Shown in pieces: positions 42,372 through 44,160 of a stretch of DNA of 64,000 nt. This DNA comes from Acidobacteriaceae bacterium TAA 166 (GTDB lineage Bacteria > Acidobacteriota > Terriglobia > Terriglobales > Acidobacteriaceae). The DNA lies in assembly GCA_000421065.1 (NCBI GenBank), contig ATWD01000001.1, positions 3,774,001 to 3,838,000 of the forward strand. Direction: 5' to 3'. The position numbers and the translations under genes were made by a program. The notes under the pieces are model-generated. The model had not been told where the DNA came from, did not search any database, and was given only the letters and a program-made list of their open reading frames with translations. Numbering within the stretch: position 1 is the first letter of the stretch; every line of letters begins with the position of its first letter.

Positions 42372-42461
42372 GGCAACAGTCCGGGCCCCTGCCATGCAGG
42401 ATATTCTCTCCAGACGGCCGAAGGTTCGGCCTCTCTTCATCTCCCGAACTTGTTGAAAGCC

Positions 42462-43106
42462 ATGACGATAGATTCAAAGGAAGAGCTGTTCCGCATAGGT
42501 TTGATCGCCACCGATCCGCTCCGGGTGCTGGGGCTGAAGACGATCGTCGCAGAGGGCGGGAGCGCGGAGGTGATCGATGTCGACGGTCCCGGTGCTCTGG
42601 ATTCCTCCGGCGTATCGATGGTCCTGATCGACGCTGCCTGCACGGACCATCTCTTTGAGCTGATCGAAACCTTCCGGCGCTCTCGCCCTCACTTGCGGCT
42701 GATCGTGATTGGCCTGGAGGAAGATCAGGAGCATATCCAGAGGGTGATTGGTGCCGGGGCCAAGGGGTATCTGAGCCATACGGCCCGTGAGAATGAGATT
42801 CGTATGGCGATCGAGATTGTGCGGGACGGCTCGGTCTGGGCCCCTCGCAAGGTGCTGGCACGGCTGCTTGAGGCCTCCTCGACAGAGCGCCAGAACACTC
42901 CTGCTGAGCCGAAGTTTACGGAGCGGGAGACGCAGGTGCTGCAGCTTCTGGTCGCCGGACGGCCGAATCGGGAGATAGCCGATGCTCTGGGGATTGATGC
43001 GGCGACGGTCAAGGCGCATGTGGGGCGGCTGATGCGCAAGATGGGCGTGGATAACCGCATCGCTCTCAGCGTGCAGGCCGTCCATCGCAACCTGGTTGCG
43101 AAATAA
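42462..43106 (+). CDS. LuxR/FixJ-type response regulator (orphan)
   Basis: A 214-aa protein: receiver-like domain (about 10-125) and LuxR DNA-binding domain (150-214; TERETQVLQLLVAGRPNREIADALGI then ATVKAHVGRLMRKMGV). The phosphoacceptor candidate is Asp57 in MVLIDAAC and the conserved Lys101 is in GAKGYL, but the acidic pair near the N-terminus is reduced to one Asp (ATDP) and the usual Thr/Ser of strand 4 is Gly (VIGLEE). Phosphorylation may be weak or absent. No histidine kinase gene is next to it. ATG 42462 is preferred over TTG 42450. It is followed by a structured non-coding region. Confidence 0.85.
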   Translation: MTIDSKEELFRIGLIATDPLRVLGLKTIVAEGGSAEVIDVDGPGALDSSGVSMVLIDAACTDHLFELIETFRRSRPHLRLIVIGLEEDQEHIQRVIGAGAKGYLSHTARENEIRMAIEIVRDGSVWAPRKVLARLLEASSTERQNTPAEPKFTERETQVLQLLVAGRPNREIADALGIDAATVKAHVGRLMRKMGVDNRIALSVQAVHRNLVAK

Positions 43107-43197
43107 CGAGTTGCGAAATAACCGATTGCAAAAGAGCCGATGACAAAGTAATTTGATGGCCTTATGTTTGGGTACTCACATGCGAAAACTTTTAACG

Positions 43198-43337
43198 CGG
43201 AGGTCTACATACCTCCGTACCGTTGTAGATACCCTGGGGCTGAGGCAATCTTTCTACAAGCAACACAGACCTGGGAGAGGGGTTGTAGAGAGCGCGCCTG
43301 GCAAGCCAGGCACTTCTCTACAACCCCCATTTTTTCT
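43198..43337 (+). ncRNA. Structured non-coding region with mutually exclusive hairpins and terminator (attenuator or small RNA)
   Basis: Hairpin 1: CGGAGGT (43198-43204) / ACCTCCG (43211-43217). Then TTGTAGA (43223-43229), TCTACAA (43253-43259), TTGTAGA (43283-43289) and TCTACAA (43317-43323), so each TTGTAGA can pair with either TCTACAA. The last pair is inside a strong terminator: GGGGTTGTAGAGA (43279-43291) / TCTCTACAACCCC (43315-43327) with inner stem GCCTGGC / GCCAGGC and an ATTTTTTC tail. Pairing of 43253-43259 with 43283-43289 would break the terminator. It lies between the LuxR regulator and the SYLF gene. The gap 43107-43446 has no credible gene. Confidence 0.6.
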
Positions 43338-43387
43338 TTGGGGAGACAGGGCTGGAGCGTACAACGCGCTTTTCGTTTCAGTCATCA

Positions 43388-43419
43388 TATAAACTATTGC
43401 AAATAAAATGTTTATTTGC
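43388..43419 (+). promoter_or_regulatory. Possible promoter -10 and palindromic operator before the SYLF gene
   Basis: TATAAA (43388-43393) could be a -10 box, though no -35 is evident. It is followed by the perfect palindrome GCAAATAAA-ATG-TTTATTTGC (43399-43419), which would cover the transcription start and could be an operator or an mRNA 5' hairpin. Confidence 0.45.
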
Positions 43420-43446
43420 GCCTCAGAAAGAAAGGCTGGAATACCC

Positions 43447-44160
43447 ATGGAACGTTGGATGAAGCATTGGTCTGGATTGGCGTGTGTGGCGGCGATGGCA
43501 TTGAGCACATCGTCTGCTTCGGCAGCAACCGATAAGGCGAAGCTGGCGGAGCGGCTACAGGATGCGCAGGCCGTTGTGACGCAGATTATGGCGACTCCGG
43601 ATAAGTCGATTCCCTCAGGCATCCTCTCCGGGGCAACGTGCCTGGCGGTGATTCCAAGCTTCAAAAAGGCGGCCTTCATCGTCGGGGCGCAATATGGACA
43701 GGGTGTGGCCACCTGCAGGACGCCACACGGCTGGAGCGCCCCTGTCTTCGTACAGCTGACCGGAGGAAGCGTGGGCTTCCAGATCGGCGGTCAGGCGACG
43801 GATCTGATCATCGTTGCGATGAATCAGCAGGGACTTCAGGACATGCTGAAGAATAAGTTCAAGATCGGCGCCGATGCCGCTGCCTCGGCTGGTCCTGTGG
43901 GCCGCAATGCGCAGGCAGGCACGGACTGGAAGCTGAATGCGGAGCTGCTGACTTACTCTCGGAGCAAGGGACTGTTTGCCGGCATCGATCTGGATGGTAC
44001 CGTTCTGTCGCAGAACGAAGACGATACGCGTGCGTTCTATGGCAATGCGATTCCCTTCGAGACGATTCTGAAGGGCAATCATGAGACACCTGAGGAGGCT
44101 CGTCCGTTCGTGCGGACAGTCGCCAAGTACTTTGTTGAGGCTCGCGACCAAAACAAGTAA
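43447..44160 (+). CDS. Exported lipid-binding SYLF-domain protein (Ysc84-like)
   Basis: A 237-aa protein from MERWMKHWSGL with a signal peptide (ending SSASAA) and a SYLF domain: RLQDAQAVVTQIM, IPSGILSGATCLAVIPSFKKAAFIVGAQYGQGV, VFVQLTGGSVGFQIGGQATDLIIVAMN, and YSRSKGLFAGIDLDGTVL. SYLF proteins bind phosphoinositides in eukaryotes; the bacterial role is unknown. The frame opens 39 nt upstream inside the palindrome, but the signal peptide supports the ATG at 43447. Expression may depend on the structured leader region upstream. A terminator follows. Confidence 0.85.
   Translation: MERWMKHWSGLACVAAMALSTSSASAATDKAKLAERLQDAQAVVTQIMATPDKSIPSGILSGATCLAVIPSFKKAAFIVGAQYGQGVATCRTPHGWSAPVFVQLTGGSVGFQIGGQATDLIIVAMNQQGLQDMLKNKFKIGADAAASAGPVGRNAQAGTDWKLNAELLTYSRSKGLFAGIDLDGTVLSQNEDDTRAFYGNAIPFETILKGNHETPEEARPFVRTVAKYFVEARDQNK

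Follow-up and report, generated by a model that had tools for sequence, protein, structure and literature searches.

Acidobacteria are abundant soil bacteria. In the RsmX/Y/Z and CsrB/C systems, a small RNA lies beside or under a LuxR-type regulator, has an upstream inverted repeat, and carries repeated GGA hairpin loops. The U-tract of an intrinsic terminator is the usual landing site of Hfq. The LhrC RNAs of Listeria are described as a multicopy sRNA family with a shared short motif, a terminator, and response-regulator control, and as binding their targets by CU-rich sites (PMC4132741). Acido-1 (RF01686) is reported as a candidate noncoding RNA of Acidobacteria (PMC2864571).

The window analyzed here is a 64,000-nucleotide stretch of DNA from Acidobacteriaceae bacterium TAA 166. 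Between a gene for a LuxR-type regulator and a gene for a SYLF-domain protein it contains a predicted RNA gene (43195-43335, plus strand, as are all features given below). We think it likely that this is an independent gene for a trans-acting small regulatory RNA of a family widespread in Acidobacteriaceae. Comparison of related sequences shows that the RNA is conserved, that its terminator and 5′ hairpin covary, that it occurs without the SYLF gene, and that a conserved promoter-like site for the SYLF gene follows it. We infer its transcription, a promoter of its own, Hfq binding, base-pairing, and control by the LuxR-type protein.

The usual 5′ neighbor of the RNA is the luxR-type gene (42450-43106; Pfam GerE helix-turn-helix domain, E 2.3e-18), whose product has a weak, receiver-like match to Response_reg (21.1 bits against a cut-off of 30.2). 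The usual 3′ neighbor encodes a SYLF/Ysc84-domain protein (43447-44160; Pfam Ysc84, E 5.8e-40). The RNA itself is about 140 nt long; its ends are approximate, being the extent of matches to two covariance models, R1 and R2. The R1 match (G000:C1:3817195-3817335 in genome coordinates) is the single convincing copy in the genome. Near its 5′ end is hairpin I (43198-43217, CGGAGGT-ctacat-ACCTCCG), which the first-pass annotation had noted as a further hairpin. It is followed by helix II (43222-43264), in which GUUGU (43222-43226) pairs with GCAAC (43260-43264) around a variable loop, and by a nearly invariant core of 19 nt, CAACACAGACCUGGGAGAG (43261-43279). The RNA is predicted to end at an intrinsic terminator (43279-43335) with a 13-bp stem, in which GGGGTTGTAGAGA (43279-43291) pairs with TCTCTACAACCCC (43315-43327) and is followed by CCA and, at 43330-43335, TTTTTT. 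This stem and T-tract had been claimed from the sequence before, correctly, and the stem covaries in relatives. Folding of 43186-43345 gives -66.2 kcal/mol, compared with a mean of -46.31 (sd 4.2) for shuffled sequences (z -4.74, 0/200 as low). A consensus terminator scan called no terminator at the RNA locus; the scan accepts only loops of 3-8 nt and counts contiguous stem pairs, and the stem here encloses a further stem-loop.

When 61 genomes were searched by BLASTN with 43107-43447, 50 had a match of some sort at E up to 1, many of these meaningless. The strong matches cover query positions 92-229 (window 43198-43335) and come almost only from the window's own genus. We built a genus alignment from 30 own-genus loci, fetched 40 loci of other genera for comparison, and assembled a family alignment of 50 sequences, in which the tested structure was named by hand. 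In the genus, 9 of the 12 terminator pairs changed on both sides and 95.5% of cells are paired, and in the 50 family sequences 7 of 8 pairs changed on both sides with 92.6% of cells paired. Hairpin I has 8 of 10 pairs changed on both sides in the family alignment, but only 60.6% of its cells are paired there (69.6% in the genus). Helix II is paired in 95.3% of cells in the genus and in 79.4% for its 4 pairs in the family, with little covariation. Covariation over the whole structure is 0.297 in the 50 family sequences compared with 0.171 in shuffles (0/500 reached it), and structures slid along the alignment reach at most 0.119. An automatic consensus fold of the family alignment contains the terminator alone; hairpin I and helix II were read by hand and then tested. 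The consensus fold of the genus also included long-range CCU/GGG pairs, which we left out; they never or hardly vary and are therefore uninformative either way. As far as alignments can define it, the conserved unit is an RNA of about 140 nt that comprises hairpin I, the short helix II, the nearly invariant core, and the covarying intrinsic terminator. Sequence and covariation both predict that the RNA ends at this terminator, as a trans-encoded sRNA does.

Two covariance models were used to follow the RNA beyond the genus: R1, built from the 30 own-genus sequences, and R2, built from the family alignment. In a sample of 298 genomes of the order, R1 has matches to the RNA in 207, belonging to 50 of 70 genera. 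R2 finds it in 287 of 329 sampled Acidobacteriaceae genomes (70 of 79 genera), including 204 of 224 of good quality. Across 297 genomes of the phylum R2 gave 29 matches, all listed as Acidobacteriaceae, and none of 14 genomes of the sister family has an R2 match at E up to 1. A repeat search of four family genomes, negative at first, yielded one doubtful match (20.3 bits). Because filtering is stricter in the large searches, the absences are provisional. According to record titles, the carriers include Edaphobacter, Granulicella, and Terriglobus albidus. A scan with an 18-base pattern returned 40 stretches, 7 of them in records titled as other phyla, which by our own arithmetic is about the number expected by chance. 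Judged by these model matches, the RNA family is spread through Acidobacteriaceae and is present in most sampled members.

The genes around the RNA are usually the same. Of the 30 own-genus loci, 29 have a luxR gene upstream and 29 have the SYLF gene downstream; of 40 loci from other genera, 36 have luxR upstream and 37 the SYLF gene downstream (66/70 together for SYLF). One own-genus record (L028) ends near the RNA, and one of the 40 other-genus loci (L070) is a dispersed copy. One or both of the two genes are present in 66 of the 70 loci counted by neighbors, so a role tied to the LuxR/SYLF locus is possible. The distance from the RNA to the SYLF gene ranges from -5 to 1712 nt, two loci (L167 and L171) have the RNA without a SYLF gene within 4 kb, and luxR is absent at three loci (L079, L086, and L173) and 1337 and 1420 nt away at two.

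Some genomes contain additional copies. We found 11 dispersed copies in six genomes of genus g24, and none has PriA, dcd, LuxR, SYLF, LpxL, or LpxD within about 1.5 kb. In these copies AACACAGACCUGGGAGAAG is retained, exactly or almost exactly, ahead of terminators that are unrelated in sequence. The genes beside them are mutually unrelated and include a transpeptidase with an exonuclease, a sodium symporter, a transaldolase, a phosphate transporter, an alpha-galactosidase, and a carboxypeptidase with a tRNA; two of the copies (L138 and L139) occupy the same site in two genomes. At one locus (L165), the interval from luxR to the SYLF gene holds four tandem core copies spaced 223-247 nt apart, and behind each of them come a hairpin and a T-run. 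In Edaphobacter modestus a second full-length copy lies on a different contig (L091:2996-3136, 117.4 bits). Its terminator shows a compensated change from U-A to C-G, a long convergent Ig-domain gene is downstream, and luxR is absent. The 234-kb contig that carries it is possibly a plasmid; a comparison of this copy with plasmid records gave no match. In nine multi-copy genomes there are 26 matches, which we sorted by sequence into 9 usual copies, 2 further tandem copies, 11 dispersed copies, and 3 chance matches (L134, L143, and L144), leaving out the 26th (L152, 17.6 bits). The RNA unit is thus conserved independently of any one neighboring gene, which is characteristic of trans-encoded sRNAs.

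The position of luxR would allow a different origin for the same molecule. In 31 of the 36 other-genus loci with luxR, that gene ends only 4-74 nt before the RNA, so there is little room for a promoter outside luxR, and in those loci the RNA may plausibly be processed from luxR mRNA. According to this explanation the terminator belongs to luxR, and the RNA is released from the 3′ UTR of its mRNA and then acts in trans. It is countered by the loci where luxR is absent or far away, and by the dispersed copies and the second Edaphobacter modestus copy, which lack luxR altogether. At 5 of the 11 dispersed copies the Pfam-matched upstream gene is on the opposite strand, and therefore the RNA is not its 3′ UTR. 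A further argument against processing is an inverted repeat, TT(A)AC-N3-7-GT(T)AA, which 12 of 30 own-genus loci (including L012, L015, L016, and L017) have at a fixed position 26-28 nt ahead of the RNA (shuffle mean 0.41). It occurs within 70 nt upstream in 5 of 40 loci from other genera (shuffle mean 0.26), and is absent in 18 of the 30 own-genus loci, the window among them. This repeat could be an operator of the LuxR-type neighbor. Upstream of the RNA in the window, a promoter scan found one sigma-70-like site where 0.6 are expected, which is the chance level. We consider origin by processing a possibility, although a rather doubtful one; it may be true in some genera and false in others.

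As an independent gene, the RNA would be transcribed from its own promoter; at certain loci it may in addition form the 3′ end of luxR mRNA. The adjacent LuxR-type protein may control this transcription. The 5′ hairpin would cap the RNA, and the intrinsic terminator with its U-tract would end it. The core CAACACAGACCUGGGAGAG most likely base-pairs with mRNAs with the help of Hfq, and this pairing most likely alters their translation or stability. An Hfq gene was found in 24 of 25 own-genus genomes searched, including the genome of the window. A G-rich core in front of a U-tailed terminator is in keeping with a base-pairing sRNA of the Hfq type, and this is probably the type to which the candidate belongs.

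Within the genus, the most conserved part of the RNA is the core CAACACAGACCTGGGAGAG, and not the first two 7-mers (30 loci). All 30 own-genus sequences have an invariant CCTGGGAGA, and across the family the core occurs in the variants CAGAUCUGGGGAA and CAGAACCUGGGAGA. It is also kept in the dispersed copies despite their differing terminators. Thermodynamic folding of 61 sequences gave no sign that the core is freer of pairing than usual: its mean unpaired value is 0.36 compared with 0.40 for the whole RNA, and it is above the whole in 23 of 61. The genome of the window has, at G000:C1:224515-224529, an exact second copy of 15 nt of the core from which the remaining RNA is absent (11.6 bits with R1); this is probably chance or a relic. 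A similar lone core occurs in another genome, G034 (12.2 bits).

We searched for sequences that could pair with the core. When up to one mismatch was allowed, the complement CTCTCCCAGGTCTGT had 84 matches, spread over 58 of 60 genus genomes and in most cases being the RNA itself; the reversed control had 12. An 11-mer complement, CTCCCAGGTCT, has 42 matches in 10 genomes, 10 of which correspond to one RNA copy per genome, compared with 23 for the reversed control. We fetched 30 of these 11-mer loci, dropped 8 that are the RNA itself, and compared the remaining 22. One gene recurs in three genomes (with the site within the reading frame) and another in two, and one gene pair is only 36% identical. 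These scans gave no target in a leader region, and core complements are not clearly enriched.

This result is also what would be seen if the core bound a protein rather than serving as an mRNA seed. In such a scheme, a LuxR-type regulator would activate an RNA of a new titrating type, which ties up some global regulator (not CsrA) in the manner of CsrB/RsmY or 6S RNA. The core is GGGA-rich and more conserved than a variable set of targets would suggest, and the LuxR-type neighbor and upstream inverted repeat resemble the GacA-rsmY arrangement. If true, protein titration would explain the nearly invariant core, the unenriched complement, and the copies that keep core and terminator although their other parts have diverged. 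CsrA was found in 0 of 37 own-genus genomes, in a search for which control genomes gave matches, and we rejected the idea of a CsrA sponge on this ground; no other protein candidate is indicated. We likewise rejected identity with 6S RNA: there is no RF00013 match in the window, and the 6S RNA of this genome is at a separate locus (G000:C1:3527302-3527489, 53 bits). Titration of a protein is, in our estimate, unlikely.

Between the RNA and the SYLF gene there is a promoter-like site, AAC-N17-CATC, at 43363-43386 in the window. It supports the possible promoter that had been proposed after the terminator. The site is present between terminator and SYLF gene in 35 of 66 loci (shuffle mean 0.955, maximum 4), comprising, as counted from the list, 22 of 29 in the own genus and 13 of 37 elsewhere. 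Its spacing is fixed, as AAC and CATC at spacings of 15, 16, 18, and 19 occur in 0, 1, 4, and 1 loci. We take the site to resemble a promoter for an ECF sigma factor. Its conservation after the terminator makes it probable that the SYLF gene is served by a promoter of its own, located behind the RNA. Between this site and the start codon, and outside the RNA, is the palindrome GCAAATAAA-ATG-TTTATTTGC (43399-43419). It is a perfect 9-bp inverted repeat in the window, as had been stated, and is not visible by eye in the printed sequences of relatives.

These observations bear on the principal proposal of the first-pass annotation, an attenuator or riboswitch leader of the SYLF gene. The proposal was based on four segments, TTGTAGA at 43223-43229 and 43283-43289 and TCTACAA at 43253-43259 and 43317-43323, whose positions are all right. 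These 7-mers permit alternative pairing in the window, with the second and third segments forming an antiterminator that would compete with the terminator, and the SYLF gene is indeed 3′ of the RNA in 66 of 70 loci with the terminator in between. An attenuator is expected to conserve both exclusive helices and to be always 5′ of the regulated gene, and neither is found here. Segments 3 and 4 are the conserved arms of the terminator, whereas the first two, in the form given, are confined to the window genome and its nearest relative(s). When the complementary pairs were checked in relatives, the terminator pair was conserved and the antiterminator pair was not, which refutes the attenuator by the condition that the annotation itself had set. 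Segments 2 and 3 pair in 52.1% of cells (a percentage reached by 23 of 500 shuffles) with a covariation of 0.095 compared with 0.094 in shuffles, and segments 1 and 2 pair in 56.4% with 0.117 compared with 0.126. Attenuation is therefore not a conserved property of these sequences, as neither pairing covaries more than shuffles do. The SYLF promoter-like site behind the terminator, the copies without a SYLF gene, the tandem copies, the copy with a convergent gene downstream, and SYLF genes as far as 1712 nt away all argue against it as well. We consider a leader of this kind very unlikely. The evidence backs the other possibility raised in the same annotation, an independent small RNA that is ended by the terminator and followed by a promoter.

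The two remaining explanations fare worse. The location directly after luxR in most loci would suit nothing more than a conserved luxR terminator, but the core, which is upstream of the stem, is more conserved than the stem and is kept in dispersed copies that have quite different terminators and no luxR, making this exceedingly improbable. A small protein gene overlapping the core is barely conceivable: 50 of 61 sequences do have a frame that includes the core and is at least 15 codons long or open to the 3′ end, but such frames occur in all three phases (32, 20, and 17), alignment indels are not multiples of three, and changes in the stems are compensatory.

The candidate small RNA has no counterpart at threshold among the families searched. 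Rfam 15 has no match in the window at the gathering threshold, and 16 loci with homologues contain only one tRNA. Weak Rfam matches were sought in 43000-43500 at E up to 5, and the best was the viral element Parecho_CRE, which scored 27.5 bits on the opposite strand where its threshold is 55; we rejected it as a chance match to the long terminator stem. We found no report of such an sRNA in open-licence literature on Acidobacteria, Acidobacteriaceae, Edaphobacter, Granulicella, and Terriglobus, and no occurrence in a word search of the text of one Granulicella omics study. A candidate RNA with a 19-nt core, a neighboring regulator, and cultured hosts offers an entry to acidobacterial post-transcriptional control, and the covariance approach is repeatable in other groups.

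Compared with the described systems, the RNA shares individual features with each. Like RsmX/Y/Z and CsrB/C, it has a LuxR-type neighbor and an upstream inverted repeat, but it has one core instead of repeated GGA hairpin loops, in a genus where CsrA was not found. It is widespread, conserved, and usually present in one copy, as is 6S RNA (RF00013), which it does not match and which is encoded elsewhere in the same genome. Both it and Acido-1 (PMC2864571) are candidate noncoding RNAs of Acidobacteria, but Acido-1 has no match in the window or the 16 homologous loci at threshold, nor in 43000-43500 at E up to 5. Set beside the description of LhrC (PMC4132741), there is a likeness in the several copies with a short motif and terminator and in the possible LuxR-type control; the RNA differs in its G-rich core (CUGGGAGA) and in being multicopy only in some genomes. 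From Hfq-associated trans-encoded sRNAs this candidate differs in its restriction to one family and its lack of an Rfam match. It resembles them in its intergenic location, length of about 140 nt, 5′ hairpin, conserved core that is left unmatched, U-tract terminator, and presence in a genome with an Hfq gene. The RNA is a new family of a known kind, probably the small regulatory RNAs.
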